This document shows, one piece after another, positions 15,209-53,333 of a stretch of DNA of 64,000 nt. The translations under genes were made by a program, and so were the position numbers. The notes under the pieces were generated by a model, which searched no databases, was not told where the DNA came from, and saw only the letters and a list, made by a program, of their open reading frames with translations. Within the stretch, counting starts at the first letter, position 1, and each line of letters begins with the position of its first letter. Source of the stretch: Bacillota bacterium (GTDB taxonomy: Bacteria > Bacillota > Sulfobacillia > JAJYWN01 > JAJZPE01); NCBI GenBank assembly GCA_021787335.1, contig JAJYMC010000016.1:62001-126000 (forward strand). The letters are read 5' to 3'.

Positions 15209-17125
15209 ATGTCCGGGGAAGGCAGGGCTATCGAGTCAATCCTGGCCACTGACGTCGGTAGTACGACGACCAAAGCCATTCTCATCGAAAAGAAGGGCGA
15301 CGAGTATCGCCTGATCACCCGCGGGGAGATGCCGACCACGGTCGAAGCGCCGTGGGAGAACGTCATGATCGGCGTCCGCAAGTCCATTCGCCGCGTGGAA
15401 GAACTCATTCAACGGCCGTTGCTCGACGACACAGGGCACCTGATCCGGCCCAAGCAGGGGGACAAGGGCGTCGATTATTACGTCTCCACCAGCAGCGCCG
15501 GCGGCGGTCTGCAGATGATGGTCGCCGGCTTGGTCTCCAGCATCAGCGCCTCCAGCGCCCACCGCGCGGCGCTCGGCGCGGGCGCGGTCGTCCTTGACGT
15601 CGTCGCCGTGGACGACGGGCGGTCGACCTCGGAGCAGATTACCCGGATCACTGAACTGCGCCCGGACATCATCCTCATGTCGGGCGGGGTCGACGGTGGC
15701 TCGGTGGCCTACATCGCGGCCATCGCCGAGACCATCGTGCAGGCCAGCCCGCAACCGCGGTTCGGGGCCACCTTCAAGTTGCCCCTGGTCTACGCGGGGA
15801 ACAAGGACGCCCAGGACATGATCCAGTCCATCGCCGAGAAGGAACTCGAAGTCCATCTGGTCGAGAACCTCCGGCCGCGGCACGACCTGGAGAACCTTGG
15901 GCCCGCCCGCGAGTCAATCCATGACCTGTTCATGAACCACGTCATGGCCCAGGCTCCCGGATACGGTGAGCTGATGAAGTGGGTCGACGTGACCATCATG
16001 CCGACGCCTGGTGCGGTCGGCAGCATCATCATGGTCATGGCCAAACAATACAAGCAGAACATCGTCGGGGTTGACATCGGTGGGGCCACGACCGACGTCT
16101 TCTCCGATTTCGAAGGGACCTTCACCCGGACCGTCAGCGCCAACCTGGGGATGAGTTACAGCGTCTGCAACGTCCTCGAGGAGGCCGGGTTCGAGAACAT
16201 CCGGCGGTGGCTGCCGTTCGAGGTCGACGAGGAAGGGCTGTCCGACTGGATCTCCAACAAGATGGTCCGGCCGACGACCATTCCGCAGACCCTCGACAAG
16301 CTCATCGTCGAGCAGGCCATCTCCCGCGAGGCCCTGCGGCTCTCGTTCGCTCATCATAAGAGTCTGGCCCGCAAGGTCGAGGCTCAGGAGATCCTGGCCG
16401 GCTGGCGGACCCAGTCCAAGTGGACCAAGGCCGCCGGCGAAGAAGTCATCGAGATGATGAAGCTCAACATGCTCGTCGGTTCGGGCGGCGTGCTCTCCCA
16501 CGCCCCGCGGCGCGAGCAGGCGGCCCTGATGCTGATGGACTCCTTCGTCCCGGAAGGCGTCACCCAGTTGGCCGTCGACTCCATCTTCATGATGCCGCAC
16601 CTGGGCGTGCTGGCGTCGACCCACCCGGAGATCGCCGCCGAGGTCTTCGACAAGGACTGCCTGGTCCGCCTCGGCACCTGCGTGGCACCGTCCGGCAAGG
16701 CCCGCGACGGGCAGGTGATCGGGACGATCAAGATAACCATGCCCGACGGGCAGGTCATCGACGATAAGATGCTTTACGGCGATATGAAGCGCTACCCGCT
16801 CCCGGTCGGCACCATCGCCAAGGCCGAGATTCAACCGAGCGGGGCCTTCGACCTGGGTGAGGGGAAGGGCAAGAAGGTCGAGGCCGAGCTCCACGGCGGC
16901 CTGGTCGGGATCGTCATCGACGGCCGCGGCCGGCCTCTGGAGCTGCCCCAGAACGACAAGGAGCGCGTGGCCAAGCTGATCAAGTGGATCGAGACACTGA
17001 ACGTCTATCCGATGGACTTCATCCGGAAGTACCAGGCGGAGAGCCCGGTTGCGACGAAGACCGCGGCCGGCGCGGAGAAGGGGGGCGAGCGGGGTGGCCT
17101 ATTCGGTCGGTTCGGCCGGAAGTAA
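15209..17125 (+). CDS. GlmL-like ATPase, copy 1 (glutamate mutase L family, actin-like fold)
   Basis: The 638-residue protein belongs to the family of GlmL/MutL, whose founding member is encoded with B12-dependent glutamate mutase. All expected ASKHA nucleotide motifs are intact: phosphate 1 DVGSTTTK (D15-K22), phosphate 2 VDIGGATTD (D289 onward) and the adenosine loop VGSGGVLSHAP (G424 region). A STSSAGGGLQMMVAGLV segment near residue 100 is highly conserved with copy 2. ATG at 15209 follows GAAGGAGG. Its end overlaps the partner gene by 32 bases. There is no mutase gene in the window, so reactivation of a mutase is doubtful and another client is likely. Confidence 0.85.
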   Translation: MSGEGRAIESILATDVGSTTTKAILIEKKGDEYRLITRGEMPTTVEAPWENVMIGVRKSIRRVEELIQRPLLDDTGHLIRPKQGDKGVDYYVSTSSAGGGLQMMVAGLVSSISASSAHRAALGAGAVVLDVVAVDDGRSTSEQITRITELRPDIILMSGGVDGGSVAYIAAIAETIVQASPQPRFGATFKLPLVYAGNKDAQDMIQSIAEKELEVHLVENLRPRHDLENLGPARESIHDLFMNHVMAQAPGYGELMKWVDVTIMPTPGAVGSIIMVMAKQYKQNIVGVDIGGATTDVFSDFEGTFTRTVSANLGMSYSVCNVLEEAGFENIRRWLPFEVDEEGLSDWISNKMVRPTTIPQTLDKLIVEQAISREALRLSFAHHKSLARKVEAQEILAGWRTQSKWTKAAGEEVIEMMKLNMLVGSGGVLSHAPRREQAALMLMDSFVPEGVTQLAVDSIFMMPHLGVLASTHPEIAAEVFDKDCLVRLGTCVAPSGKARDGQVIGTIKITMPDGQVIDDKMLYGDMKRYPLPVGTIAKAEIQPSGAFDLGEGKGKKVEAELHGGLVGIVIDGRGRPLELPQNDKERVAKLIKWIETLNVYPMDFIRKYQAESPVATKTAAGAEKGGERGGLFGRFGRK

Positions 17126-18461
17126 CGGCGAGAAGCGCTATCCGGTGGCCATGGTCCGAAAGGTCCGCAAGCTGCCCCTGCCCGGCGAGGTCCTGGCGGA
17201 GGTCGGGGATCAGATCGATCCCGAGACCATCGTCGCCAAGATCAGCCTGAAGCCGGGCATCCCCTGGGTCGTCCCGGTGGCCCGGCTGGTCGGCATCGAG
17301 CCGGCCGCCCTGCCGGCGGCCATGATGCGCAAGGTCGGGGACCGGGTCAAGACCAAGGAGATCATCGCCCGCGCTGAAAAGGGCATCTACGGCCGTAAGG
17401 AGTACGAAGCCCCGACCGACGGGGTCATCGAGGACATCTCCGAGAAGTCCGGCCGGGTCGTCATCCGTGAGGAGTTCGGCAAGGAGGAGCCTCCGGTCAG
17501 CTTTGACGCTGCCTTCGAGCTCGGCTGCAAGCCGCGGGATCTCTCTAAGTTCATGATCAAGAAGATCGGGGACGAGGTCAAGCGCGGCCAGTTCGTCGCC
17601 AAGAAAGGCGAGGCCCAGGCCTTCTTCACGAAGACCGCCCGGACGCCCATCTCGGGCATCATCGCCGAGGTCAACGATCAGACCGGCTATGTCACCATCG
17701 CCCGGCCGTTCAAGGAAGTCGTGGTCAAGGGTTACATCAAGGGGGTCGCCCGGGAGATCGTGCCGGCCCGCGGCGTCGTCGTCGAGGCCCCAGCGGTCCG
17801 GCTGACGGGCATCTTCGGCGTCGGCCGGGAGACCCACGGCGACCTGAAGATCCTCTGCCAGAAATCTGACCAGACCCTGACCGACGACATGATCACCTCC
17901 GAATGCGAGGGCAAGATCGTCGTCGGCGGTGCCTTCGCCACCAACGAAGCGCTGAAGAAGGCGGTCGAGGTGGGCGCCAAGGGCGTCATCACCGGGACGG
18001 CCAGTTACCTGAACATCGTCAAGTCGCTGGGCGTCAAGCTGGGCGTGGGCATCACCGGGCAGGAGGACATCCCGACCACGGTCATCCTCCTCGAGGGCTT
18101 CGGCCATCTGGCCATGCACGAGGAAGCCTTCAACGTGCTCAAGAGCCTGGAAGGCCGCCATGCTTCGATCAACGGCGCCACCCAGATCCGCGCCGGAGCC
18201 ATCCGGCCCGAGGTCGTCGTGCCCTTCAGCGACTGGACCGGTGAGATCACCGAGGCCAAGGTGATCGACGAGGACCTCAGCGTTGGTCAGGCCGTCCGGG
18301 TCATCAACGCCCCGTACTTCGGCGAACTGGGCCGGATCACGGCCATCCCGCGTGAGCCGGTGGTCGTCGAGACCGAAGCCAAGGTGCCGGTGGTCGAGGT
18401 CGAGCTGGCCTCGAACAACCAGCGGGTGGTCGTCCCGCGGGCCAACGTCGAGGTGTTCTGA
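17094..18461 (+). CDS. Partner of GlmL-like copy 1: tandem barrel-sandwich domains, swivel-like and KOW-like domain
   Basis: The 455-residue soluble protein has two lipoyl/barrel-sandwich-like units. The first is about residues 20-150, starting KVRKLPLPGEVLAEVGDQI. The second is about 160-220, with KKIGDEVKRGQFVAKKGE. A beta-barrel segment follows, then a domain starting GKIVVGGAFATNEALKKA at residue 273, and a KOW-like end (PYFGELGRITAI and VPRANVEVF). No lipoylation DK motif is obvious. GTG at 17094 lies eight bases after AAGGGGGG and overlaps the GlmL-like gene, implying coupled synthesis. Relative to copy 2 it carries about 82 extra N-terminal residues, one extra barrel-sandwich unit. Function unknown. 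Confidence 0.6.
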   Translation: MAYSVGSAGSNGEKRYPVAMVRKVRKLPLPGEVLAEVGDQIDPETIVAKISLKPGIPWVVPVARLVGIEPAALPAAMMRKVGDRVKTKEIIARAEKGIYGRKEYEAPTDGVIEDISEKSGRVVIREEFGKEEPPVSFDAAFELGCKPRDLSKFMIKKIGDEVKRGQFVAKKGEAQAFFTKTARTPISGIIAEVNDQTGYVTIARPFKEVVVKGYIKGVAREIVPARGVVVEAPAVRLTGIFGVGRETHGDLKILCQKSDQTLTDDMITSECEGKIVVGGAFATNEALKKAVEVGAKGVITGTASYLNIVKSLGVKLGVGITGQEDIPTTVILLEGFGHLAMHEEAFNVLKSLEGRHASINGATQIRAGAIRPEVVVPFSDWTGEITEAKVIDEDLSVGQAVRVINAPYFGELGRITAIPREPVVVETEAKVPVVEVELASNNQRVVVPRANVEVF

Positions 18462-18513
18462 CCGGGAAAGGGTCGCGGCGGGGTGTCCCCCCCCCCACCG
18501 CGCCTCAGACGAA

Positions 18514-18538
18514 GAAGACCGCCTTTGCGGCGGTCTTC
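18514..18538. terminator. Hairpin between convergent genes
   Basis: GAAGACCGCC and GGCGGTCTTC form a perfect 10-bp stem with a 5-base loop between the first partner gene and the convergent lipoprotein gene. There is no clear T-tract on either strand, so termination strength is uncertain. A run of ten C at 18487-18496 precedes it. Confidence 0.6.
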
Positions 18539-18574
18539 ACCTTGACTCCTCAGGGGGTCATGACCTTCAGGGGA

Positions 18575-18973
18575 CTAGTAGTTGCCCAGCCGCCATCCCT
18601 GGCCGCTGTCGATGATGAATCCGTACTGTTTGGTCTCTGACGTTTCGGCGTCGTTCCCCTTCTTGCGGTACACGGTAGCGGTGATGACGGTGCTGGTCGC
18701 CCCGTGGTACTCGACGTTCTTTATCTCGTAACGGACGACCGGCCCTTTCGACTCGGCCTCGGCCTTCAACGCCTTGGCGAAGTCGTCGGACGTTATCTCG
18801 CCCTTGACCCTCGTCGTGAACTGCGCGTACGCCGTTGTGTAGTCTCCCTTGACCATCGCGTCCATGTAGGTCTGGAAGATGGTCTTGGCATCCTTGCCGC
18901 CACAACCGGCGGCCAGGGCCGTGGTCAGGATGAGGATGATGACCAGAGCGCTTCCCAAGAGCCTCCTGCGCAT
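18575..18973 (-). CDS. Small lipoprotein with DUF4878/NTF2-like domain
   Basis: The 132-residue protein starts MRRRLLGSALVIILILTT and has a lipobox ALAAGC, so it should be a lipid-anchored extracytoplasmic protein. Residues about 28-130 (TIFQTYMDAMVKGDYTTAYA, ending GQGWRLGNY) fit the NTF2-like/DUF4878 pattern of small lipoproteins, whose role is mostly unknown. The ATG at 18973 is set by AAAGGAGGTG; an upstream in-frame ATG has no ribosome site. It is the only gene on this strand between the two GlmL-like modules. Confidence 0.7.
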   Translation of the reverse strand: MRRRLLGSALVIILILTTALAAGCGGKDAKTIFQTYMDAMVKGDYTTAYAQFTTRVKGEITSDDFAKALKAEAESKGPVVRYEIKNVEYHGATSTVITATVYRKKGNDAETSETKQYGFIIDSGQGWRLGNY

Positions 18974-19018
18974 CGGTAGCACCTCCTTTCGCAGACTGGC
19001 CTGAATTTTGTTAGACAA

Positions 19019-19043
19019 ATTCGAGTCACCGGCCCCTTTTCCT
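19019..19043 (-). promoter_or_regulatory. Sigma-H-like promoter of the small lipoprotein gene
   Basis: On the minus strand AGGAAAA, 11 bases, then CTCGAAT closely fits AGGAwWW-N11/12-RnnGAAT (C instead of purine at the first -10 position). It lies about 45 bp upstream of the ATG, a plausible distance for the transcription start. Confidence 0.5.
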
Positions 19044-19134
19044 GCTGGAATCATCGCCGTTTTCTGATTTTAGATTATCGCCGACCCCCCGGTGAGATGC
19101 TTACTTGGAAGTATGCACTCACGGAGGGATGCAT

Positions 19135-19287
19135 GTGAGCAAGGAGAAGCGCCCCGGCCCGTTCGACCCCCCGGAGCAGCCGATCTATGACAGGGAGATC
19201 GAGGACGCGGCCCGCCCGGGAGGAAGGCGAGGAGAAAGCGAAGGCAAGGCAAGAGAGGCAGAACAAAAAAGGCGGGTGGTAAAGTGA
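19135..19287 (+). CDS. Small charged protein coupled to the next gene, unknown
   Basis: A 50-residue polar protein (starts MSKEKRPGPFDPPEQPIYD, ends in a Glu/Lys/Arg-rich tail) with no membrane segment or recognised family. GTG at 19135 lies six bases after GGAGGG; an ATG at 19129 would touch the ribosome site. The TGA overlaps the GTG of the following gene (GTGA), a common sign of a real, translationally coupled gene pair. Confidence 0.5.
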   Translation: MSKEKRPGPFDPPEQPIYDREIEDAARPGGRRGESEGKAREAEQKRRVVK

Positions 19288-19802
19288 GCACCTCAGACTT
19301 TGACATCACGCCCGAACGACGCGACGAAATGATTGAATGGACGGCCCAGCAGATTCACAAGCGCGGGTTGACCACGCCGGCCGTCTTCTTCATCGAGATG
19401 AACCGACCCATCAGCTATGTCGGAAGCCAGGCGGTCCACTTCTTTTCGCCCTTCGTCAACGCCATCTTTGACAGCAAGCTGGCCACCGAGGTCGGGCACC
19501 TGATGTCGGACCGGAAGAACATCGACCGGCTCATCGACCGCCTCGAGGAACTGACCAGAGAGCAAGAGGCCGCCGAACGCAAGGCCCGCAAGAAGGCCAA
19601 GCAGGAAGCGGGCAAGGCGACCGCCGGAGAGGTCTCGCCGGAGGCCCAGGCCCTGGCCGAGGCGGCTGAACGGAGCGGGGTCGACCTCGGCGCCGGGCCG
19701 GCTCCCGAGGACGCGGCCAAGGGCGCCGAGACCGACGCGACCGAGCAGCCCAAGAAGGGCGGGTTCCTGGGCTCGGTCGGGAAGTTCCTGAAGCGGAAGT
19801 AG
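19284..19802 (+). CDS. Conserved-looking 172-residue protein, unknown function
   Basis: Residues 1-70 are mixed hydrophobic and amphipathic (KRGLTTPAVFFIEMNRPISY, VGSQAVHFFSPFVNAIF) and could bind a membrane or a partner. Residues about 75-115 form a Glu/Lys/Ala-rich likely coiled coil. The remainder is Ala/Pro/acid-rich, ending in a basic amphipathic motif GGFLGSVGKFLKRK. No family was recognised. It starts by GTGA overlap with the small gene before it and lies 150 bp upstream of the second GlmL-like gene, so an accessory role in that module is possible but unproven. Confidence 0.5.
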   Translation: MSTSDFDITPERRDEMIEWTAQQIHKRGLTTPAVFFIEMNRPISYVGSQAVHFFSPFVNAIFDSKLATEVGHLMSDRKNIDRLIDRLEELTREQEAAERKARKKAKQEAGKATAGEVSPEAQALAEAAERSGVDLGAGPAPEDAAKGAETDATEQPKKGGFLGSVGKFLKRK

Positions 19803-19850
19803 CCGGCGGCAGCCCCATCCCGCGGCTGTATAACCTCTGAACGTTGCACG

Positions 19851-19875
19851 GGCCCGCCCGCACCGGGGGTGGGCC
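19851..19875 (+). terminator. Weak hairpin terminator
   Basis: GGCCCGCCC and GGGTGGGCC pair with one internal mismatch and are followed by ATGTTTT. It probably ends the coupled small-gene pair before the promoter of the second GlmL-like gene. Confidence 0.4.
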
Positions 19876-19884
19876 ATGTTTTGC

Positions 19885-19909
19885 AGGTATTCCGAAAAGC
19901 GTAGCGAAT
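19885..19909 (+). promoter_or_regulatory. Sigma-H-like promoter of the second GlmL-like module
   Basis: AGGTATT, exactly 12 bases, then GCGAAT matches the sigma-H pattern with one deviation (T for A in AGGA). It is 44 bp upstream of the ATG at 19953, just beyond the weak hairpin, and is the best candidate promoter for the glmL-like-2/partner-2 pair. Confidence 0.5.
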
Positions 19910-19952
19910 ATATCTGTTCGTCCTTGTTGGTTACATAAAGAGGAGGAAGGCC

Positions 19953-21821
19953 ATGTCTGAGAACAGTCATGGGGCCAAGTACAACCTGGACCGGGAGATC
20001 AACTCCATCCTTGCCACCGACTGCGGGAGCACGACGACCAAAGCCATCCTCATCGAGAAGGTGGACGGCGAGTACCGGCTGATCGTCCGCGGCGAAGCCC
20101 CGACGACCGTGGAGAAGCCGTTTGAAGACGTCACCGCCGGTGCCCGGAACGCCATCCGGGAGATCGAGGAGCTCACCGGCAAGCGGTTCCTCGACGACAA
20201 GGGCGTCATCAACCCGCGCCGTCCCGACGGTTCGGGCGTTGACATCTACCTGTCGACGTCGAGCGCCGGCGGCGGCCTTCAGATGATGGTCGCCGGCGTG
20301 GTCAAGATCATGAGCGCCGAGAGCGCGCAGCGGGCCGCCCTCGGGGCCGGGGCCATCGTCATGGACGTCATCTCCATCGACGATGGGCGCCTTCCGTATC
20401 AGCGCATCCAGCGCATCCGGCACCTCAGGCCGGACATGATCCTCCTCTCCGGCGGCATCGACGGCGGGACGATGTCCCACGTCGCCCAGATCGCCGAGCT
20501 CATCTCCGCCGCCGAGCCCAAGCCGCGCTTGGGCATCGGCTTCAAGCTGCCGATCATCTACGCGGGCAACAAGGACGCCCGCGGCTATGTGTCCAAGATC
20601 CTCGGCGAGAAGACCGACCTCCGGATGGTCGACAACATCCGTCCGGTGCTGGAGAGGGAGGTTCTCGGGCCGGCCCGCGAGGAGATCCACAACCTCTTCA
20701 TGGAGCACGTCATGGCCCAGGCCCCCGGCTACGACAAGCTGATGAAATGGACGCCGGTGCCGATCATGCCCACCCCGGGTGCCGTCGGCCTCGGCATGCA
20801 GAACGCGGCCAAGGAACACAAGATGTCGGTCATCGGCGTGGACATCGGCGGCGCCACCACCGACGTCTTCTCGGTCTTCGGCGAGGAGTACGAACTGTTC
20901 AACCGGACCGTCTCGGCCAACCTCGGGATGAGCTATTCCATCTGCAACGTGCTCCTCGAGTCCGGGGTGGCCAACATCATGCGCTGGGTCCCCTTCAGCA
21001 TCGACGAGGCCGACCTGCGCAACCGCATCCGGAACAAGATGATCCGGCCGACGACCATCCCGCAGACTCTTGACGAGTTGGTCATCGAGCAGGCCATCTC
21101 CCGCGAGGCCCTGCGCCTGGCGTTCATCCACCACAAGAGCCTGGCCGTCGGCCTCCGCGGCATCCAGCAAATCCGCGACATCGGCGCGGCCTTCGAACAG
21201 TCCATGACCGGCCAGTCCCACATCGACCTGATGAAGCTGGGGATGCTCATCGGCTCGGGCGGCGTCCTCTCGCATGCCCCGCGCCGCGTCCAGTCGGCCC
21301 TGATGATGCTGGACGCCTTCCAGCCGGAGGGCCTGACCCAACTGGCGGTCGACTCCATCTTCATGATGCCGCAACTGGGCGTCCTCTCGACCGTCCACCC
21401 GCAGGCTTCGGCCCAGGTCTTCGACCGCGACTGCCTGATTCGCCTGGGGACGGCCATCGCCCCGGTCGGCCCGGGCAGGGAGGGCGAGCACTCCGTCATC
21501 GTCAGGGGCACCCTGCCCGACGGCCGCGAGGTCAACGAGGAAGTCAAGTACGGCCAGATGCGCCTCATCCCCCTGGGCGAGGGCCAGACGGCCGAGTTCC
21601 ACATCCAGCCGGCTCGCAGCTTCGACGTGGGCGCCGGCAAGGGCAAGGCCATCACCCAAAAGCTCCTGGGTGGGGTCGTCGGCGTGATCGTCGACGCCCG
21701 CGGCCGCCAGCCCTTCGGGCTGCCCGTGGACAAGGCGACCCGGATCAAGAAGCTCCTCGAGTGGATCGAAAGCCTCGACGTGTACCCGCGCGAAGTCCTG
21801 GCGCGGTACAGCGCGAAGTAG
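19953..21821 (+). CDS. GlmL-like ATPase, copy 2 (glutamate mutase L family)
   Basis: A 622-residue close paralogue of copy 1; long stretches such as STSSAGGGLQMMVAG and IRPTTIPQTLDELVIEQAIS are nearly identical. Nucleotide motifs are intact: DCGSTTTK (D23-K30), VDIGGATTD (D297 onward) and IGSGGVLSHAP. ATG at 19953 follows AGAGGAGGAAGG. The partner gene begins 18 bp later. Tandem retention of two complete ATPases suggests either a heteromeric machine or two client versions. No mutase genes are nearby. Confidence 0.85.
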   Translation: MSENSHGAKYNLDREINSILATDCGSTTTKAILIEKVDGEYRLIVRGEAPTTVEKPFEDVTAGARNAIREIEELTGKRFLDDKGVINPRRPDGSGVDIYLSTSSAGGGLQMMVAGVVKIMSAESAQRAALGAGAIVMDVISIDDGRLPYQRIQRIRHLRPDMILLSGGIDGGTMSHVAQIAELISAAEPKPRLGIGFKLPIIYAGNKDARGYVSKILGEKTDLRMVDNIRPVLEREVLGPAREEIHNLFMEHVMAQAPGYDKLMKWTPVPIMPTPGAVGLGMQNAAKEHKMSVIGVDIGGATTDVFSVFGEEYELFNRTVSANLGMSYSICNVLLESGVANIMRWVPFSIDEADLRNRIRNKMIRPTTIPQTLDELVIEQAISREALRLAFIHHKSLAVGLRGIQQIRDIGAAFEQSMTGQSHIDLMKLGMLIGSGGVLSHAPRRVQSALMMLDAFQPEGLTQLAVDSIFMMPQLGVLSTVHPQASAQVFDRDCLIRLGTAIAPVGPGREGEHSVIVRGTLPDGREVNEEVKYGQMRLIPLGEGQTAEFHIQPARSFDVGAGKGKAITQKLLGGVVGVIVDARGRQPFGLPVDKATRIKKLLEWIESLDVYPREVLARYSAK

Positions 21822-21839
21822 GGGGAGGTAGAGACAGCC

Positions 21840-22961
21840 ATGGCGCATGCCTACACACCCGGCCTGAAGGTCACCGAACAGACCACCATCCAGAAGGTCC
21901 GGCGCCTGCCGCTCCTCGGCGATGTGCTGGTCAAGGTGGGTGACATGGTCAACCCGGACGACGTGGTGGCCAAGACGGACCTCCCCGGGAACCCGATGTC
22001 CATGAACGTCGCCCACGACCTCGCCTGTGAGCCCGAGGATGTCCCTCTCCACATGCTGAAGAAGCAGGGCGACAAGATCACCAAGGGCGAGGTCATCGCC
22101 AAAGCGTCATCCTTCTTCGGCCTGTCCAAGAAGGAGCTGAAGGCCCCCATCGACGGGTCGGTCGAGCTCATCTCGGGCGTCACCGGCCAGGTCACCCTGC
22201 GCGAGCCGCCCATCCCGGTCCAGATCAAGGCCTACATAAGGGGCAAGGTCGTCGAGATTCTGCCCCGCGAGGGCGTCATCGTCGAGACCACGGCCGCCTT
22301 CATCCAGGGTATCTTCGGCATCGGCGGCGAGGTCCAGGGCCAGATCAAGCTGATCGCCAAGACGCCCAGCGACGTCCTTGACGCTTCGTCCCTGACCCCC
22401 GACTGCAAGGGCAAGATCGTCGTCGGCGGTTCTCTGGTCACCGGGGCCGCTCTGAAGAAGGCCATCGAGGTGGGCGCGGTCGGCCTGGTGGCCGGCGGCA
22501 TCGTCGACGCCGACCTCATCGCCCTCCTGGGCTACGACATCGGCGTGGCCATCACCGGCCACGAGGATATCCCCATCACGGTCATCGTCACCGAGGGCTT
22601 CGGCCAGATAAAGATGGCCGACAAGACCTTCAACCTGTTCAAGAACATCGACGGGGAGGTGGCCTCGATCAACGGCGCCACCCAGATCCGCGCCGGCGTC
22701 ATGCGCCCGGAGATCATCGTCCCCGAGCACAAGCCGGTCGGGCGGCTGGCGGCCGATACGAGCAGCGAGGGCCTGATCCCCGGGACCCCCATCCGGGTCA
22801 TCCGCGAGCCCTACTTCGGCGTCCTGGCCGAGGTCGTCGACCTGCCACCGGAGTTGCAGGTCATCGAGACCGAGGCGAAGGTGCGCATCCTCCGCTGCAA
22901 GCTCGAGGACGGCCGGGTGGTCACCGTACCCCGGGCCAACGTCGAGATCATCGAGGGTTGA
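21840..22961 (+). CDS. Partner of GlmL-like copy 2: barrel-sandwich, swivel-like and KOW-like protein
   Basis: A 373-residue paralogue of the first partner with a single barrel-sandwich unit (RRLPLLGDVLVKVGDMVNPD; MLKKQGDKITKGEVIAKA; APIDGSVELISGVTGQV). A barrel segment RGKVVEILPREGVIVET follows, then the GKIVVGGSLVTGAALKKA domain from residue 191 and a KOW-like end (EPYFGVLAEVVDL, VPRANVEIIEG). The ASINGATQIRAG block is shared with the first partner. It has no signal peptide or membrane helix. Function is unknown; gene order indicates a physical or functional pair with the ATPase. Confidence 0.6.
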   Translation: MAHAYTPGLKVTEQTTIQKVRRLPLLGDVLVKVGDMVNPDDVVAKTDLPGNPMSMNVAHDLACEPEDVPLHMLKKQGDKITKGEVIAKASSFFGLSKKELKAPIDGSVELISGVTGQVTLREPPIPVQIKAYIRGKVVEILPREGVIVETTAAFIQGIFGIGGEVQGQIKLIAKTPSDVLDASSLTPDCKGKIVVGGSLVTGAALKKAIEVGAVGLVAGGIVDADLIALLGYDIGVAITGHEDIPITVIVTEGFGQIKMADKTFNLFKNIDGEVASINGATQIRAGVMRPEIIVPEHKPVGRLAADTSSEGLIPGTPIRVIREPYFGVLAEVVDLPPELQVIETEAKVRILRCKLEDGRVVTVPRANVEIIEG

Positions 22962-22962
22962 C

Positions 22963-23019
22963 AAGGGTGCGGGCAAATCGCCCGCACCTTGCTTAATCGC
23001 CTTAAGCAAATCATTTTTT
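22963..23019 (+). terminator. Double-hairpin terminator
   Basis: GGTGCGGGC/GCCCGCACC (22966-22988) is followed at once by TTGCTTAA/TTAAGCAA (22989-23009) and T6 at 23014-23019. This is a strong composite terminator after the second GlmL-like module. Confidence 0.8.
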
Positions 23020-23042
23020 AAGAAATGAAAGGCGGCCGTTCA

Positions 23043-43743: not shown

Positions 43744-43744
43744 G

Positions 43745-45224: not shown

Positions 45225-45239
45225 GCCGCCCCTGTTCGG

Positions 45240-45265
45240 AGGACTTCGCCCTCGTGGGTTGAACT
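45240..45265 (+). promoter_or_regulatory. Possible sigma-H-like promoter of the GNAT gene
   Basis: AGGACTT, 12 bases, TTGAACT is a partial match to the sigma-H pattern (T for purine and GAAC for GAAT), 45 bp upstream of the TTG at 45310. It is back-to-back with the tldD candidate. Confidence 0.25.
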
Positions 45266-45309
45266 ATTCATTAATTGCGCCAGTTAGCGGGCGGAAAGGC
45301 GGCGCCAAC

Positions 45310-46251: not shown

Positions 46252-46277
46252 ATCGGTCAGGTGGTTCACGAGGAAGA

Positions 46278-46886
46278 GTGTCTGGCGGGGCCGGGGAGCT
46301 GGCCCGCGTCCGGCGGGCGGTCTGGCTCAAGCGGGGCGCGGCTCTGGCGGTCCTGGCCGTGGTCGCCGCCATTCCGTGGGCGCGGTTCCACGCCCGCGAA
46401 CGGGCCCTGACCGCCGAGGCGACGGTGCTCGGTGCCGACTCGCCCCTGCGGCCGGCGGCCGACGCACTCATCCGCGGTCTCCTGGCCCGGAACTTCCAGT
46501 CCGTGGTACCGTATTTAATGGGGGATCTGCTGCTCGATGCCCGTCGGGAACTGGCTTACAACTTCCCGGCGAAGCCCGAGGAGGCCGTCAGTCTGGCCAC
46601 GGCGCTCAAGCTCGCCACCGGGGTGGGCCTGGAGCCGGCAGGACCGATCACGACGACCATCGAACGCGGTCCGAGCGGCGGCGCGGGCGCCTCCGGCGGG
46701 CCGGCCTATCTGACCGAGGCCGTGGTCCGGGCGACCTACGTCGTGGACCTGCCGGCCGGGACGCCGCCGGGCCGGCTCTTGGTCGAGGACCGGCTGGGTT
46801 TCCGTTACGACTCGGCCCACCAGCGTTGGCTGTGTTACAGTCTGTCGCGAAGCGCACGGACTGATGAGGGGAGCGAGGGACGTTGA
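46278..46886 (+). CDS. Single-pass membrane protein of ABC cassette 1 (ADSP family)
   Basis: The 202-residue protein has a basic N-terminus and one helix (about residues 15-36), then an extracytoplasmic domain that begins VLGADSPLRPAADALIRG. The same V-L-x-A-D-S-P pattern follows the helix in the protein at 53323, so the two are paralogues, one per ABC cassette. No family was recognised; the size is compatible with an NTF2-like domain. Its stop overlaps the TTG start of the ATPase. An accessory subunit of the exporter is inferred. Confidence 0.6.
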   Translation: MSGGAGELARVRRAVWLKRGAALAVLAVVAAIPWARFHARERALTAEATVLGADSPLRPAADALIRGLLARNFQSVVPYLMGDLLLDARRELAYNFPAKPEEAVSLATALKLATGVGLEPAGPITTTIERGPSGGAGASGGPAYLTEAVVRATYVVDLPAGTPPGRLLVEDRLGFRYDSAHQRWLCYSLSRSARTDEGSEGR

Positions 46887-47686
46887 GGAAGCGGGGAAGA
46901 ACGGCTGACGAGGTCGGCGCCCGAGTGGGGGCCGGGACGGCCGGCGCGGGCGGGGACCTCTTCGCCCCCGGGCCCAATGGTGATGACGCTTACGGCGAGC
47001 CCATCCTGAGGACGGTCCGGTTGAACAAGGCCTTCTTCATGGGCGAGACCATCTACGCCGTCAACGACGTTAACCTGGCCATCGAGGGCGGCGAGTTCGT
47101 CCTCATCACCGGGCCGTCCGGGAGCGGCAAGAGCACCCTCCTGTCCTTGCTCGGCGGGCTTGACCGGCCCATCTCGGGCGAGGTCATCCTCGACGGCCGG
47201 CGTTATTCGCGGCTTAACGAGAACGGGCTGGCCGCCCTGCGCCGCCAGAAGGTCGGTTTCGTCTTTCAGTTCTTCAACCTCATCCCTCACCTGACGGCGA
47301 GGGGGAACGTCATGCTGCCGATGCGCTTCGCCGGCCGCTCCGCCCGCGAGGTCGGGGAGCGGGCCGACGAGCTCCTGGCCCTGGTCGGTCTGACCGACCG
47401 GGCCGGTCACCGCCCCTCGCAGCTTTCCGGCGGCGAGCAGCAGCGCGTGGCCATCGCTCGGGCGCTGGTCAACAAGCCGGCCGTGGTCCTCGCCGACGAA
47501 CCCACCGGGAACCTCGATTCCAAGACGCGGGAGGGCATCGGCGAGATCTTCGGTCGCCTGAACCGCGAGACGGGTCAGACTTTCATCGTCGTCTCCCACG
47601 ACGAGACCTTCAACGGACTGGCCGACCACGTTCTCCACATGGTCGATGGCTGGATCGAGCGGAACGAGGTCCGTTCACGCCATTGA
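46883..47686 (+). CDS. ABC ATP-binding protein, MacB/LolD type (cassette 1)
   Basis: The 267-residue protein has ~45 polar residues and then an ATPase with Walker [11 protein letters not shown]-loop [13 protein letters not shown], signature LSGGEQQRV, Walker [13 protein letters not shown] and switch [16 protein letters not shown] is characteristic of LolD/MacB/FtsE-type ATPases that power mechanotransmission rather than classical import. TTG at 46883 overlaps the previous stop. It pairs with the two FtsX-fold permeases that follow. Confidence 0.9.
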
Positions 47687-47705
47687 AAGGGGCCCTCTGT
47701 CGTCC

Positions 47706-49181
47706 ATGACCTTCTTCCGGTTGGCCTTCACCAATGTAGCGCGGAACCTCGGGCGAAGCGTGCTCTCGGTCATCGCCATGGCCGTGGCCGCCTTCGTCAT
47801 GACCTCGTCGTCCTCGGTCGCCCAGGGCTACCCGCGCGACAGCTTCCTCGCCCAGCGGGCCTTCATCGGCGGCGACATCATCGTCTACCCGGACCAGTAC
47901 CGCCTGGGCGGGCCGACCGCGAGCGGGGCGGGCCCCGCGGATGACCGTCTGACCTACGCCCGCACGGCGGCCGACGCCCTCAACGACCTGCCGGACTTCC
48001 ACCCCGAGCTTCGTGATGAGGGCTATGTCCGCCGCGGACCGGCCCTGCCCAACGTGATCGACCTGCGCCAGGTCCAGCAGCGGCTGTGGGACGAGAAGGC
48101 AGTCAAGCTCATCTACCCGTATTACGCCCTGCCGGGCTTCGCCGGCGGGCCGGGCGGCCAGTCGTCGCCGCTACGCGGGCGGAACACCCTCCTCGACCAG
48201 TCGGTCTGGCACCTCTACGATTACGTCACCGCCGGTCGCTACCTGACCTCGGCCGACGACGGCGAGTTCGTCGCCGTGGTCGACGCGAGGCAGGCCAAGG
48301 AGGGGCGGGACGTCCCGCCGGTCGGCACGTCCATCGAGGTGAGCGTGCCTGCCGTCCGGCATGACCCGGACGGGACCCGGTGGTTCGACTACTCAGCGAT
48401 GAAGAGCTTCCGCTTCAAGGTCATCGGTCAGATCGCCCTGCCGACGCGCCTCCTGGCCTGGCCGACGCCGCCCAACGGCAGCGCCAGCGAGCAGCTCTAC
48501 TGGAGCACGCCGCAGGTGTTCATCCCGGCGGCCACCTTCGAGCAGGTCTACCGCGAGGTCAGCGGGGGCAACCCCTATGAGTTCGAGCAACTGATGGTCA
48601 TCGTCGAGGACCAGAGCTTCATCCGTCAGGCCATGACCGAACTGCGCCGGGCGCTGCCCGAGTACACCGCGGTGACCGTGGCCGACCAGGTGACGATGGC
48701 CGAGGCCCGGGGCCTGCCGGAGAAGGTCTACCAGGCGCCGCCACAGGTGCGCGGCGACCCGAGCCTGCGGGCGCAGGTCGGGGTCCCGATGGACCTCGGC
48801 CCGGCCATGACCCTGCTCCTCTACCTCATCGCGGCGATGATCGTCGCCGCCAACATGGTCCTCCTGGTCACCTCGAGGCGGCAGGAGATCGGCGTCCTGA
48901 GGGCCGTCGGGGCCAAGGGTCGGGACGTCGTCCTGATGATTCTGACCGAGACGGCCGCTCTCAGCCTGGGTGGAGCGCTCATCGGTTTCACCCTCGTCCG
49001 TTTCGCGGCCACCTGGAACCTCCTCTCGAACCGGGTCGGACTGGCCCGTGTCGGCCTCCTGACCCTGACCGACCTGGGCCGGGTGGTCGGCGTGACCCTG
49101 GCCATGGCCGTGGTCTTCGGCCTCTTCCCGGCCTTCCGGATGGCCCGGGTATCGGCCATGGAGGTGCTGCGCAATGAGTAG
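47706..49181 (+). CDS. FtsX/MacB-type permease A (cassette 1)
   Basis: The 491-residue protein has an N-terminal helix (SVLSVIAMAVAAFVMTSSSS), a ~330-residue extracytoplasmic domain and three C-terminal helices with the FtsX signature TSRRQEIGVLRAVGAKGRDV. This is the MacB permease architecture. It is paralogous to the protein at 54480 (similar start and an R-R-Q-E-I-G-x-L-R-A-x-G-A motif). ATG at 47706 is the only plausible start; AAAGGGG is somewhat far upstream. It overlaps the next permease by 8 bases. Confidence 0.85.
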   Translation: MTFFRLAFTNVARNLGRSVLSVIAMAVAAFVMTSSSSVAQGYPRDSFLAQRAFIGGDIIVYPDQYRLGGPTASGAGPADDRLTYARTAADALNDLPDFHPELRDEGYVRRGPALPNVIDLRQVQQRLWDEKAVKLIYPYYALPGFAGGPGGQSSPLRGRNTLLDQSVWHLYDYVTAGRYLTSADDGEFVAVVDARQAKEGRDVPPVGTSIEVSVPAVRHDPDGTRWFDYSAMKSFRFKVIGQIALPTRLLAWPTPPNGSASEQLYWSTPQVFIPAATFEQVYREVSGGNPYEFEQLMVIVEDQSFIRQAMTELRRALPEYTAVTVADQVTMAEARGLPEKVYQAPPQVRGDPSLRAQVGVPMDLGPAMTLLLYLIAAMIVAANMVLLVTSRRQEIGVLRAVGAKGRDVVLMILTETAALSLGGALIGFTLVRFAATWNLLSNRVGLARVGLLTLTDLGRVVGVTLAMAVVFGLFPAFRMARVSAMEVLRNE

Positions 49182-50313
49182 CCCCTCGTTCGAGATGGCC
49201 TGGCGCTACTGGCGGCGCGCCCCCTGGCGGAACCTGATGATGGCCGTCGTCCTGGCCGCGGGCATGGTCGCCTATCTCGTCTATAACGGATACTCGACGG
49301 CGATGGTCCTCCGCTCGCGGGGCGAGACGCGGAGCCTCAGGCTCCCGGCCGCCGCCGCCATCGTCCTCGATCAGGCCGGCGGGGCGGCCCGCGTGCAGCG
49401 GGCGCTGCAGGGCGCGCGCGGGGTCGGGGCGGTGGTCCCGGCCCGCCTCGACGACCTCCTCACGAGCGCCGGCAGCCTGAGCCTCCTGCGTCTGGGACCC
49501 TCGGGGCAAGCTCTCCTTGACGGCCTCAGCCTCGACGGCGCCCGTCCGTCCGGGGCCAACCAGGTCCTTGCCCCAAGGCTCGTCGCCGAGCGGCTGGGCG
49601 GCGTGTCGGCGCTGACCGTCCGCGGGGGCGGCGCGGCCCTGGCCGTGTCCGGGACCTACGATCACTTCTGGGACCTCGGCGACCCGCTCATCGCCGTCGA
49701 GGCCCGCGACCCCGCGGGGGCCAATGTCCTCTTCGCGTTCGGGCCGGCCGGCGCCGGCGGGGAAGAGACCGCTCGGGCGGTGGGCGCCGCCCTTGACGCG
49801 GCGACGGACCTTCCCGGCTACCGTCTCTTCACGGCCGCCACCCCGGACGAGATGGTCGAGCGGCTCGGCGCGGACATCTACCGCCCGGGCGGCCAGGCCG
49901 TGGCGCTGCTCTTCGTGACCATCGCCATTGGCTTCTGGACCCTGCTCCTGTCGGCCTTCCTCGAGCGGCGGCGCGAGGTGGCCGTGCTGAAGACAGTGGG
50001 CCTGTCGAGCGGCGAGATAACGCGGGTCTTCCTCGGCGAGGCGATCCTGACCGGTGTGGCGGGAGCCATCCTCGGTCTGGCCGCCGGTCCGCTGGCGACA
50101 CGGCTACTCTCCCGGGCGCTGGCCCTGCCTCTGGCGGTCAGGCCTGGGAGCCTCATCGCCGGCGTCGTCTACAGCCTCTTCGTGACCCTGGTCTCGGCCC
50201 TCTACCCGCTGGCCCTGGCCGGGCGCGGGACGGTGACCGAGCTGCTCCACGGACAACCAATCCGTTTGTTCTACCAGCGTGTCGGCGGGGCCGACGAATC
50301 GGCGGCCGACTGA
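49174..50313 (+). CDS. FtsX-type permease B (cassette 1)
   Basis: The 379-residue protein has a first helix (LMMAVVLAAGMVAYLVYNGY), a shorter extracytoplasmic domain (~190 residues) and three C-terminal helices with ERRREVAVLKTVGLSSGEI, an FtsX-domain signature. It is smaller than permease A, and the pair likely forms a heterodimer with the cassette 1 ATPase. A similar short permease closes cassette 2. Confidence 0.85.
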   Translation: MSSPSFEMAWRYWRRAPWRNLMMAVVLAAGMVAYLVYNGYSTAMVLRSRGETRSLRLPAAAAIVLDQAGGAARVQRALQGARGVGAVVPARLDDLLTSAGSLSLLRLGPSGQALLDGLSLDGARPSGANQVLAPRLVAERLGGVSALTVRGGGAALAVSGTYDHFWDLGDPLIAVEARDPAGANVLFAFGPAGAGGEETARAVGAALDAATDLPGYRLFTAATPDEMVERLGADIYRPGGQAVALLFVTIAIGFWTLLLSAFLERRREVAVLKTVGLSSGEITRVFLGEAILTGVAGAILGLAAGPLATRLLSRALALPLAVRPGSLIAGVVYSLFVTLVSALYPLALAGRGTVTELLHGQPIRLFYQRVGGADESAAD

Positions 50314-50349
50314 GCCTACCTGATACCTGAGATGTTGGGAGGGACCAGC

Positions 50350-52143
50350 TTGGGCGAGCGTCATGAAGGCGAGGCGGTCCTGGCCATCGAACTGGGCCGG
50401 GCTGTCACCAGGGCAGGCCTCTTCGAGGCCGGCCCGGACGGGTGGAAGCTGACGGCCACGGGGTCGGCGCCGACGACGAGCCAGGCGCCGTGGCGTGATG
50501 CCGGGCTCGGCATCCAGTCGGCCCTGGCCGATCTGACGGTGGGCCTCGGGCGGCCGCTGACCGGTCGCGAGAGAGTCGTCGCCTGCACGCGCGCCTCGGG
50601 CGGGCTGCGGGCGGCCGTCGCCGGGGTCATCCGGACGATGACCGCCGAGAGCGCCTGGCGCGCCGCCCTCAACGCGGGGGCCGAGGTGGTCGACGTCTTC
50701 TCCCTCGACGACCGGCGCCTTCCCGTTCAGCAGGCGATGGACTTCCGCCGCTCGAGCATCGACCTCCTGCTCCTGGCCGGCGGGGTGGACGAGGACCTCT
50801 TCGCCTACGGACGCGGGCATCAGGTCGTCACCGAGGCCGGCACGCTGGCCGGCGCCCTGCCCCCGTCGCGCCTGCGGCCGGGCGCGCCGTTGCCGGTGGT
50901 CTTCGCCGGCAGCGCTGAGGCCCGCGACCTGGTGGCCGAGGCCTTCAAGGGCCGTCCCGCGGCTTTCACGCTGACCGAGAACGTCCGCCCCGACCTGGAC
51001 CGGGAGGTCCTCGAACCGGCCGGCCGGACCCTGGTCGACCTCTACCGCGGCGAACTGCTGGAGTCCTCGGTCTTCCGAGGCTTGGCCGCGTTGAACCCGG
51101 CGCCGCTGGTCCCCACGGGCCTCGCGGTCGGCCAGGCGGTGAAGTCCTTCGCGCTGGCCCACGGCCACGACTCGACGCCGGCCAACGTGCTCGCCGTCGA
51201 CATCGGCGCCGCCGGGGTCGACGTCCACCTGGTCATGTCCGGGACCTATACCCGGTCTTCGACCCGCGGGACACGCCCGCAGAACGAGGCGACCCTGGCC
51301 GCCCGGGTCGCCCGCTGGTTGCCGTACGCCGTGGACCCGGCCAAAGTCCTCGACCACGTGGCCGGCCGGCGGGCCCATCCGGCCGCCGTCGCCGAGACCT
51401 GGCCCGAACTGCTCATGGACCTGGCGGAGGGGCGGGAGGCGATGGCCGTCGCCCTGGAGGCCCATAAGCAGGTCGCCGTGACCCTTCGCGGGATGCCGCG
51501 CCGCCGGACCATCGGCGAGGCCCTCGGCCGGTATCTGTCGGTCGGCGGGCAGACCCTGGTGGACCTGAGCAAGATCGACCACGTCATCGGTACGGGCGGG
51601 CCTCTGGCCGCCTCCCCCCAAGCGGCCATGCTGGCCCTCATTGACGGGCTCCAGCCGGCTGGGATCACCCGGCTATCGCTGGACGCCGACGGCTCCTGGC
51701 CGTGGCGCGGCCTGTTGGGCCTGGCCGGGCTGGACGGCCAGGGCGTGACCCCGCTGGCCCTCGGGACCTGCGTTGCCCCGCCGGCGACGGCGGGCCGGTC
51801 GCGCGAAGGCCGGGTACTGGCCGAGGTGGAAGTGCGGCAGGGTGTGTGGTCATCCACGGTGGCCCTCGTGGCCGGGGAACTGCGGGCCGTCCGTCCGCCG
51901 AAGGCCGGAGCGGCGACGGTCATCATTCGCCCCAAGGGGATGGCCGACTACGGGGCCGGTCCGGCCCGCGCGGTGCAGGCCGAGGTGGAGGCGGGTCGTT
52001 TCGGGGTCATCCTTGACGGCCGCGGCCGGCCCATCGTCATGCCAACCAACGAAGCGCGGCGGCAGGCCCGGGCCAGGGAATGGATGAAAGGCATCGGCGA
52101 CTGGCCCGCGGCGGCCGTCGCCGGCGGAGGTGAGGCCAGATGA
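50350..52143 (+). CDS. GlmL-like protein, copy 3, with degenerate nucleotide-binding motifs
   Basis: The 597-residue protein aligns over its length with copies 1 and 2 (ASGGLRAAVAGVIRTMTAESA, LLLAGGVDE, VLDHVAG; C-terminal VILDGRGRPI). The phosphate 1 motif DxGSTTTK has become ELGRAVTR (E14-R21). Phosphate 2 GGATTD has become GAAGVD (after D284). The adenosine loop is GTGGPLAAS. ATP hydrolysis is therefore doubtful and a pseudo-ATPase role is likely. TTG at 50350 follows GGGAGGGA. The gene lies between two ABC cassettes, with its partner gene overlapping by ATGA. Confidence 0.75.
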   Translation: MGERHEGEAVLAIELGRAVTRAGLFEAGPDGWKLTATGSAPTTSQAPWRDAGLGIQSALADLTVGLGRPLTGRERVVACTRASGGLRAAVAGVIRTMTAESAWRAALNAGAEVVDVFSLDDRRLPVQQAMDFRRSSIDLLLLAGGVDEDLFAYGRGHQVVTEAGTLAGALPPSRLRPGAPLPVVFAGSAEARDLVAEAFKGRPAAFTLTENVRPDLDREVLEPAGRTLVDLYRGELLESSVFRGLAALNPAPLVPTGLAVGQAVKSFALAHGHDSTPANVLAVDIGAAGVDVHLVMSGTYTRSSTRGTRPQNEATLAARVARWLPYAVDPAKVLDHVAGRRAHPAAVAETWPELLMDLAEGREAMAVALEAHKQVAVTLRGMPRRRTIGEALGRYLSVGGQTLVDLSKIDHVIGTGGPLAASPQAAMLALIDGLQPAGITRLSLDADGSWPWRGLLGLAGLDGQGVTPLALGTCVAPPATAGRSREGRVLAEVEVRQGVWSSTVALVAGELRAVRPPKAGAATVIIRPKGMADYGAGPARAVQAEVEAGRFGVILDGRGRPIVMPTNEARRQARAREWMKGIGDWPAAAVAGGGEAR

Positions 52144-53333
52144 AGACGGTCCTTCTTCCCACGCCGGTCTACCGTGGGCGCATCGCCCGGTCGCGCCGCC
52201 TGGACCTGGGCGGCAAGCTCAGTGTCGCGGTGGGCCAGACGGTCACCCCGTCGACCGTCATCGGTCTCAACGGGGATGAGGAACTCCGGCATTTCGTCCG
52301 GGTCGAGGCCGAGAACGGCCGGCTCCTGGCCAAGGTCCTGAAGGCCCCCGGCGACAAGGTCAAGCGGGGCGAGACCATCGCCTATTTCACCTACTTCTTC
52401 GGGCTGGGCTACAAGGAATACACCTCGCCCGTGGACGGCCGCCTCGAGGCCGTCTCCGAGGTCACCGGGACGGTCACCATCAAGCAGGACCCGACCCCGG
52501 TGGCCGCCCTCCTGCCCGGGACGATCGCCGAACGCCGCGAGGACGACGGCGTGACCATCGCCCTTACGGCGACGGTCATCGCCGGGGCCGCCGGCACCGG
52601 CCGGCCGACCTATGGCGAGCTTCTGGTCCTATCCCCCGACGCGGCGGCCCAACCCAAGAGCATCGGCGATGAGGTCAGGCGGCGGGTCGTGGTCATTCCA
52701 GGCCCGGCCGGCCGCGAGCTCATCGCCGTCCTGTTCCGGCGTCGAGCGGCCGGTCTGGTCTGCGGCGGCCTGAGCCGCGCCGCCGCTCTGGAACTGGAAC
52801 AGCAGGTCGCCCGGTTGACCCCCGAGGAGTTCGCGGCCCGCTACTATGACGCCGCCGCCCTCCGGGACGGAGACGGCGAGGCCGTCCCGACCGAGGTCGG
52901 CTTGACCATCGTGGCCGTCGCCGGGTACGGCGATGCGGCCATGCCGTCCGAAGTCCTCGACCTCCTCAGGGCCAACGACGGCCGGGTCGCCTATCTGGAC
53001 GGACGGATGACCGAGGGCGGGGAGGACGTCCGCCCCGAGGTGGTCATCCCCCTGGACGGCGAAGGGGCGGAGGCCGCGGCTCCCCCTACGTCGGCGCCCG
53101 TCGCGTCCGCACCCCCAGCCGCCGGCGCCGAACTCGTCGGTCGCCCGGCCGTGGTCGTCGCCGGTCCGCGCAAAGGGCTACGGGGTCGGGTCGTGGCCAC
53201 TCCGCCCGGCCGGCCGCTGACCCTGGAGACCGGCCTCGTGACCGAGGCCATCGAGATAGAGACCTCGGACGGGGCGCGTCACCTGGTGCCGCGGGCCAAT
53301 GTGGAGGCTTACGGGGACGGCCGTGGAGCCTAG
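52140..53333 (+). CDS. Partner of GlmL-like copy 3, diverged barrel-sandwich/KOW-like protein
   Basis: The 397-residue protein starts with barrel-sandwich-like sequence (RRLDLGGKLSVAVGQTVTPS, VLKAPGDKVKRGETIAYFTYFF, SPVDGRLEAVSEVTGTVTI), corresponding to the other two partners. It ends in a KOW-like block (VVVAGPRKGLRGRVVATPPG, LVPRANVEAYG). The middle GKIVVGG domain is strongly diverged, and an Ala/Pro linker lies at about residues 310-330. ATG overlaps the GlmL-like stop. No enzyme motif was found. Its retention next to a likely inactive ATPase suggests a structural or regulatory pair. Confidence 0.55.
   Translation: MKTVLLPTPVYRGRIARSRRLDLGGKLSVAVGQTVTPSTVIGLNGDEELRHFVRVEAENGRLLAKVLKAPGDKVKRGETIAYFTYFFGLGYKEYTSPVDGRLEAVSEVTGTVTIKQDPTPVAALLPGTIAERREDDGVTIALTATVIAGAAGTGRPTYGELLVLSPDAAAQPKSIGDEVRRRVVVIPGPAGRELIAVLFRRRAAGLVCGGLSRAAALELEQQVARLTPEEFAARYYDAAALRDGDGEAVPTEVGLTIVAVAGYGDAAMPSEVLDLLRANDGRVAYLDGRMTEGGEDVRPEVVIPLDGEGAEAAAPPTSAPVASAPPAAGAELVGRPAVVVAGPRKGLRGRVVATPPGRPLTLETGLVTEAIEIETSDGARHLVPRANVEAYGDGRGA

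Follow-up and report, generated by a model that had tools for sequence, protein, structure and literature searches.

MutL-family ATPases paired with a multi-domain beta protein and associated with a DUF6754 membrane cassette rather than with glutamate mutase

The window analysed here, a stretch of 64,000 nucleotides from a Bacillota genome (assembly GCA_021787335.1, contig JAJYMC010000016.1, positions 62,001 to 126,000), contains three gene pairs, each composed of a gene for a MutL-family ATPase and a gene for a multi-domain beta protein, here called the partner. The MutL ATPase, which usually has a C-terminal extension, is typically encoded beside the partner, and genomes that possess the partner almost always carry DUF6754, the first gene of a cassette for four membrane proteins (DUF6754, M2, M3 and M4). 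The pairs are independent of glutamate mutase. The best explanation, to which a probability of roughly 0.4 can be given, is that they are the cytosolic half of a conserved glutamate-mutase-independent module whose membrane cassette would most likely be a solute transporter. A preliminary description of this DNA had proposed an undescribed membrane-linked module in which the ATPase works with the partner, and the strong association with the DUF6754 cassette supports this proposal. The module itself is well supported, while its function is what we infer from the evidence given below.

The pairs and the cassette in the window

The three pairs share one gene order, with genes that overlap or nearly touch, and the open reading frames (ORFs) and the matches to MutL (PF13941) agree on this point; all three ATPases exceed the PF13941 cut-off. 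The coordinates first given for pairs 1 and 2 were right, but pair 3, which had been placed from 50350 onwards, starts with an ORF that begins at 50332. The operon of four membrane proteins reported beside copies 1 and 2 is also real and lies at 11953-15006, 5' of pair 1. The genes of the cassette and the pairs are as follows (TM, transmembrane; E, E-value).

11953-12780, + strand: DUF6754 protein, cassette gene 1 (PF20539, E 2.3e-99, 332 bits against a cut-off of 27)
12839-13465, + strand: M2, cassette gene 2, polytopic, 5 hydrophobic segments, without a Pfam family
13493-14317, + strand: M3, cassette gene 3, two TM helices flanking a soluble domain, without a known family
14374-15006, + strand: M4, cassette gene 4, polytopic membrane protein, without a Pfam family
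15209-17125, + strand: pair 1 MutL-family ATPase, with C-terminal extension and intact ATP-site motifs (PF13941, E 4.8e-120)
17151-18461, + strand: pair 1 partner (alternative start at 17094; longest ORF from 17049)
19284-19802, + strand: SML, small conserved protein, neighbour of MutL and partner (no credible E in Pfam)
19953-21821, + strand: pair 2 MutL-family ATPase, motifs intact (PF13941, E 4.1e-125)
21840-22961, + strand: pair 2 partner, shorter, without the second barrel-sandwich unit, 18 bp after the pair 2 MutL
50332-52143, + strand: pair 3 MutL homologue, phosphate motifs degenerate (PF13941, E 5.7e-56)
52140-53333, + strand: pair 3 partner, with a 4-bp overlap with the pair 3 MutL

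Co-occurrence and independence from glutamate mutase

The tabulation of co-occurrence showed that the partner tracks MutL and DUF6754, not the mutase. In the phylum set of 179 genomes, the partner was matched in 13, MutL in 75, DUF6754 in 14 and mutase E (GlmE, PF06368) in 55, of which six weak cases (E 1e-7 to 1e-5) were dropped and 49 strong ones kept for Fisher tests. DUF6754 is present in 12 of the 13 partner genomes versus 2 of the 166 others (P = 7.5e-16), and M3 was found in exactly the 14 genomes with DUF6754. GlmE, by contrast, is present in 3 of the 13 partner genomes versus 46 of the 166 others (P = 1.0). Among genomes with MutL and no partner, GlmE reaches 39 of 62, versus 10 of 117 for the remainder (P = 2e-14). 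Since related genomes are not independent, these P values are only indicative; the 13 partner genomes span seven families. The single partner genome without DUF6754 (G009) carries beside the partner two MutL pieces with the middle missing, and a genome of the same genus (G159) has the complete set.

A wider contig scan with three partners listed at least 589 candidate stretches, of which 528 code for relatives; the 80 best loci were taken further. These are labelled as Bacillota, Zixibacteria, WOR-3, Marinimicrobia, Poribacteria, Planctomycetota, Bdellovibrionales, Armatimonadetes, Fermentibacteria, Bathyarchaeota and Culexarchaeum, among others, all of them being unchecked labels of metagenome-assembled genomes. 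In 49 partner-bearing genomes hand-picked from the 80 loci, MutL is present in all (in two as short fragments), DUF6754 in 48 (it is missing from G210) and PF06368 in none; control genomes gave no match in this last search, and the profile is the same that matched 55 of the 179 phylum genomes. Together with the Fisher test, this shows that the pairs are not confined to the surroundings of glutamate mutase genes. The MutL and partner genes overlap or are separated by at most 30 bp in 56 of 75 cases.

The source genome (G000) separates mutase-linked from paired MutLs. A search for MutL detected six genes, five of which are followed by a partner: besides the three pairs of the window, there is one at C7:54078-56932 (locus L007), which lies behind a major facilitator superfamily (MFS) gene and ends about 5 kb upstream of the window, and another on contig C50 (locus L009). 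The sixth MutL belongs to an ornithine degradation operon on contig C17 (L008:3251-11306), in which Ord, OrtB, OraE and OR-4, the four proteins tested, exceed their cut-offs (OR-4 with 633 bits versus 600), and the gene after the OR-4 MutL is racemase-like by eye. This MutL passes the OR-4 model and lies behind OraE, while the ATPases of the pairs fail that model. PF06368 gave no match in the genome. The preliminary description had noted the lack of any B12 mutase; scans of part of the window genes agree with this and name none, but the genome as a whole owns a B12-dependent aminomutase with a MutL of its own. The same split is found in Candidatus Fermentithermobacillus carboniphilus, in which an OraE-type mutase, recognised by its Pfam domains, lies beside a short MutL (L149).

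The ATPases

Copies 1 and 2 have intact phosphate motifs (in copy 1, DVGSTTTK and DIGGATTD) and pass a test for an active actin-fold site (DxGSTTTK, D[IV]GGATTD, G[ST]GG), which copy 3 fails. In the MutL of copy 3, ELGRAVTR(A) and (V)DIGAAGVD(V) replace the phosphate motifs and the adenosine motif GTGG is retained. Because both phosphate motifs are lost, copy 3 is probably inactive as an ATPase, which corrects the preliminary description on this point. Among the aligned MutLs, GSTTTK and GGATT[DN] are each conserved in 76 of 77, copy 3 being the sole exception to both. Altered motifs are also present in MutLs fetched later (L147, L150 and L154), so that copy 3 is not unique.

The NCBIfam models that score best on the pair ATPases are GlmL and OR-4, and neither cut-off is reached. 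For GlmL (NF040745, cut-off 475 bits), the window copies score 220.9, 216.3 and 127.6 bits and the two further pairs 178.5 and 224.7 bits; for OR-4 (NF040744, cut-off 600 bits), the pair ATPases score 108-216 bits. They have the MutL domain (PF13941) in common with GlmL, and copies 1 and 2 also share its ATP-site motifs, but they differ in their lower scores, in the C-terminal extension, in being encoded with a partner and in belonging to a genome without a glutamate mutase match. OR-4 is likewise of the MutL family, but the true OR-4 follows OraE, whereas the pair ATPases have no recognised mutase alongside.

ORFs of 856-916 amino acids with a MutL-type ATPase are present at L155:3795-6365 and L157:95-2845. 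The one in L155 is also partner-like by similarity, and might represent a fused pair.

The partner protein

The partner had been described as a protein with barrel-sandwich and KOW domains. In Pfam, the barrel sandwich (RnfC_N) stands above the cut-off for the copy 1 partner only (E 8.7e-7); copy 2 remains below it (0.0018) and copy 3 gives no match. The KOW domain is weak in Pfam (0.0089 in copy 1, below the cut-off), but it is supported by a profile of 64 partners, which matches the SPT5 KOW domain (E 5.9e-6), and by a predicted model. In this model of the copy 1 partner (predicted local distance difference test, pLDDT, 90.1; predicted template modelling score, pTM, 0.70), two barrel-sandwich-like units can be distinguished, residues 214-359 form a swivelling beta/alpha domain and residues 373-436 a KOW domain. 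Aligned with VIA-align, the swivelling domain matches UPF0107 protein AF_0055 (Z 9.6, root-mean-square deviation (rmsd) 2.7, 111 aligned residues), with RraA and a rifampin phosphotransferase domain at similar Z, and the KOW domain matches A. aeolicus NusG (Z 9.2, rmsd 1.6, 55 aligned), within a range of 8.2-9.2 for KOW domains. Copy 1 and both extra pairs of the genome have the second barrel-sandwich unit, which is absent from copies 2 and 3.

SPT5 and NusG act on RNA polymerase. The KOW domain is common to them and to the partner, and NusG of T. maritima, which carries an extra insert domain, is the first Foldseek match of the copy 1 partner model. However, the three window partners have no NGN match in Pfam at E<=0.1, the swivelling domain stands in between, and the superposition over the whole length is poor (rmsd 24). 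Missing Foldseek or VIA-align matches were given no weight as evidence. Scans with Pfam and NCBIfam gave the partner no match to a known subunit or activator of a mutase, so that this way of refuting the preliminary reading fails.

The membrane cassette

The loci profiled were 84, namely the best 80, the window and three other loci of the source genome, and the gene tallies rest on family profiles rather than on simple gene calls; the alignments were drawn from genes above set length limits. Profile matches were obtained for DUF6754 in 26 loci, M2 in 26, M3 in 27, M4 in 28, SML in 40, MutL in 64 and the partner in 83. DUF6754 is followed by M2, M3 and M4, in this order, for 27 of 32 genes, three of the five exceptions being at or near the end of a locus. 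The full ordered cassette is also present in all 20 further regions centred on DUF6754 matches. Of these matches, genome G179 has 14, of which 12 are covered; for G195 the coverage is 6 of 7, for G219 2 of 8.

DUF6754 is a family (PF20539) to which Pfam assigns no function, and M2 proteins have mostly 5-6 hydrophobic segments. The model predicted for DUF6754 (pLDDT 88.0, pTM 0.80) consists of a Rossmann-like domain between two TM helices, and the domain matches sirtuin, RCK and dehydrogenase folds (Z 8.5-11.7). The derivation of a function from such lists was rejected, since the matches are those of a generic Rossmann fold. The bias of the positive charges that flank the helices places the DUF6754 domain inside in 29 of 32 proteins for the first helix (1 opposed) and in 22 of 32 for the second (5 opposed); the M3 domain is placed outside in 24 of 24 and 22 of 24, respectively, the count being based on the 27 M3 proteins minus three for which fewer than two TM segments were predicted. 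From these sequence features, the DUF6754 domain is predicted to be cytoplasmic and the M3 domain extracytoplasmic.

Several candidate relationships were discarded. M3 has no profile match to DUF6754 nor to the PgsW-like protein of locus L065, and searches by sequence for relatives of M3 or DUF6754 in the PDB gave none that was credible. A fibronectin domain suspected by eye in long DUF6754 forms had no Pfam match in the two scanned. A link with poly-gamma-glutamate, prompted by PgsB/PgsW-like genes in L065, was examined in this one locus, which has no MutL nearby, and was dropped. No ABC (ATP-binding cassette) ATPase was found among the module genes (window members of the six families with Pfam and NCBIfam, SML with Pfam). 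A lone divergent homologue of M3 is encoded on contig C50 of the source genome (L112:9570-10487), no other cassette gene being recognised in the fetched region.

In the open-access papers searched, none naming DUF6754 or PF20539 was found, and nothing resembling such a module was found among those on GlmL/MutL; PMC5898192 uses none of the six terms looked for in a relevant sense.

Pair 3 and other pairs beside transporters

Copy 3 lies, as first described, within an ABC exporter operon, whose FtsX and ABC genes were confirmed. The genes run ABC-FtsX-FtsX-MutL-partner, and more FtsX-type and ABC genes come after them. This exporter is an ABC system separate from the module.

46278-46886, + strand: one-TM protein (by eye), left part of the exporter
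46883-47686, + strand: LolD/MacB-like ABC ATPase, left part (best matches are LolD models, below cut-off)
47646-49181 and 49174-50313, + strand: FtsX-type permeases, left part (FtsX E 2.3e-10 and 6.3e-15)
from 53299, + strand: one-TM protein (by eye), right part
54480-55997, + strand: permease, ADOP/MacB-like, right part
55990-56817, + strand: ABC ATPase, right part
56814-58097, + strand: weakly FtsX-like permease, right part

Two partner trees were built, one with 44 of 99 sequences and a second with 20 of those 99 and five later ones. The copy 3 partner clusters with one partner each of loci L050 and L051, from Fermentithermobacillaceae, with support of 100/99 and 100/100 and on long branches. 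In both loci, a MutL fragment and the copy-3-like partner lie one gene upstream of an FtsX-ABC-FtsX set (the third exporter gene of L051 was not tested for FtsX), with a second pair behind, whose MutL has intact motifs. Locus L147 has the order FtsX-ABC-FtsX-MutL-partner and a MutL with altered motifs (DVGNILTK, DVGGSTVD, ASGIPLS). Its partner groups with those of L009, L045 and the second pairs of L050 and L051; for this reason it was dropped as a counterpart of copy 3. As the L147 and copy 3 partners fall in different groups, the association with exporters occurs in two partner lineages. In BLAST over 13 fetched regions, the copy 3 partner scored best against L150, where no exporter was seen. 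In another part of these groupings, the partner of L060, on a contig labelled Patescibacteria, falls with archaeal ones, so that misbinning is possible.

An MFS gene directly precedes the pair in two loci (L007:6519-10933 and L148:7639-12276; the L148 MFS similarity has E 1.1e-15). The pairs are thus found beside three unrelated kinds of membrane proteins, and this points to a general function in support of membrane machinery.

Proposed function and alternatives

In the proposed explanation, the four membrane proteins would form one complex, with the Rossmann-like DUF6754 domain in the cytoplasm and the M3 domain outside, which would most likely be a solute transporter present in several copies for different substrates; near peptidase islands, these could be peptides or amino-acid derivatives. 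The ATPase would dock through the partner at the cytoplasmic face, and ATP would drive or reset the complex, in a manner akin to the reactivation of the mutase that is attributed to MutL/GlmL. A single ATPase pair would, in many genomes, be shared by several cassettes. Duplicated pairs may have been recruited by FtsX/LolD-type exporters (copy 3) and by an MFS protein (the upstream pair), and in copy 3, with its phosphate motifs lost, a scaffold role may remain. Energy-coupling factor (ECF) and other transporters share one ATPase among several membrane units. The module would resemble them in that one energising unit apparently serves several membrane units, but its ATPase is of the actin fold, not of the ABC type, and its membrane subunits belong to no known family. 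A bolder proposal would make DUF6754-M2-M3-M4 a new class of primary transporters of bacteria and archaea, powered by a shared MutL, in place of an ABC ATPase, through a barrel-sandwich/swivelling/KOW adaptor; GlmL would then have branched off from an ATPase family tied mainly to transport. This we regard as rather unlikely.

Copy numbers and neighbours bear on the transporter. Genome G179 has 12 full cassettes. Over the 49 partner-bearing genomes, DUF6754 matches are more numerous than MutL matches in 24, equal in 18 and fewer in 7, and 36 genomes have a single MutL match; the raw totals (132 DUF6754, 73 MutL) include fragments and GlmL-type MutLs. The window cassette is located 3' of an island of peptidases and amino-acid enzymes, and an amidohydrolase gene follows pair 2.

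1212-10155, + strand: peptide/amino-acid catabolic island upstream of the cassette (alanine racemase, PALP enzyme, C26, S58, asparaginase II, M55 D-aminopeptidase, DUF4438, M20)
23025-24200, + strand: amidohydrolase immediately 3' of pair 2

Within about 5 kb around the 12 cassettes of G179, 13 of 64 genes code for M20, S9, TldD, creatininase or amidohydrolase proteins. In 14 spaced background regions with 101 genes, amidohydrolases number 2 and all proteins of these classes together no more than about 6 (P between 1e-4 and 6e-3; the counts come from family tallies in which one protein might count twice, that of the background covering 25 families).

Several observations weigh against this explanation. 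The enzyme classes of G179 were picked after seeing the neighbours, and in one genome, and eight regions of two other genomes (L125-L132, with archaeal labels) showed no common neighbour theme by eye. As none of M2, M3 and M4 has a match to a known family, the case for transport depends on topology, copy number and neighbours, and the predicted Rossmann-like domain would also fit a regulator or an enzyme. The source genome has five pairs versus three DUF6754 genes, which, with the excess of MutL in 7 of the 49 genomes, argues against simple sharing. DUF6754 and M3 occur without a partner match in G019 (78% complete) and G095 (where DUF6754 is partial), and 20 of the 80 loci, some at contig ends, have no MutL near the partner. 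Finally, a B12-binding domain is present in 47 of the 49 genomes, so that absence of such domains is no general argument against a B12 link.

The pair might instead be a dedicated chaperone or reactivase of a membrane enzyme built by the four membrane proteins, ATP being used for assembly or repair. This is unlikely. In its favour, a legend in PMC4682846 describes MutL as a chaperone that reactivates glutamate mutase, and the sirtuin, RCK and dehydrogenase matches of DUF6754 and the frequent single MutL also speak for it; however, no catalytic family is recognised, and the many paralogous cassettes and soluble domains on two sides suit a transporter at least as well. The same two-sided arrangement, and a KOW domain related to SPT5/NusG, would fit a signalling or regulatory complex in which M3 senses the outside, DUF6754 relays the signal inside and MutL and partner are an ATP-dependent effector. 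We consider this improbable, because the cassette has two extra polytopic subunits and, although single regulator genes occur, no recurring output domain or regulator was seen by eye beside the 20 cassettes.

For copy 3 alone, decay to a functionless duplicate that stands in an exporter operon by chance would account for the lost motifs, the very long branches and the best BLAST score against a locus with no exporter seen. Both of its frames are nevertheless open in the window and both trees join its partner to those encoded upstream of FtsX/ABC genes, which makes decay quite improbable. Very improbable, in turn, is that the pairs are accessories of another B12-dependent enzyme, different from glutamate mutase and encoded elsewhere. 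The family is otherwise mutase-linked, as is the sixth MutL, an OR-4 beside OraE, and B12-binding domains are nearly always present; but GlmE is found in 0 of the 49 genomes, two of them (G182 and G204, completeness not given) lack any B12-binding domain at E<=1e-5, it is membrane proteins that are conserved as neighbours, and no pair ATPase of the source genome reaches the GlmL or OR-4 cut-off.

The module, which occurs in numerous bacterial phyla and in several archaea, has no assigned function, and it may have escaped notice because GlmL and OR-4 are the best-scoring NCBIfam models for its ATPases. Should an actin-fold ATPase energise a membrane transporter, this would be a new mode of coupling ATP to transport; if the pair were a chaperone, enzyme reactivation would be extended to membrane complexes. 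In either case, the view that a MutL implies a B12 mutase is corrected, and DUF6754 and three unnamed membrane families acquire a testable context.

Other neighbours of the pairs

Between pairs 1 and 2 of the window, one small gene lies on the opposite strand.

18575-19054, - strand: small lipoprotein-like protein, with weak NTF2-like (MecA_N) similarity

In five loci (L151, L152, L153, L158 and L159), a protein of 263-289 amino acids, without a Pfam family in the single one scanned, is encoded beside a divergent MutL or partner. In four loci of the Fermentibacteria type (L069, L075, L083 and L109), the MutL and partner genes lie behind genes that, by eye, are glycine-cleavage-like.

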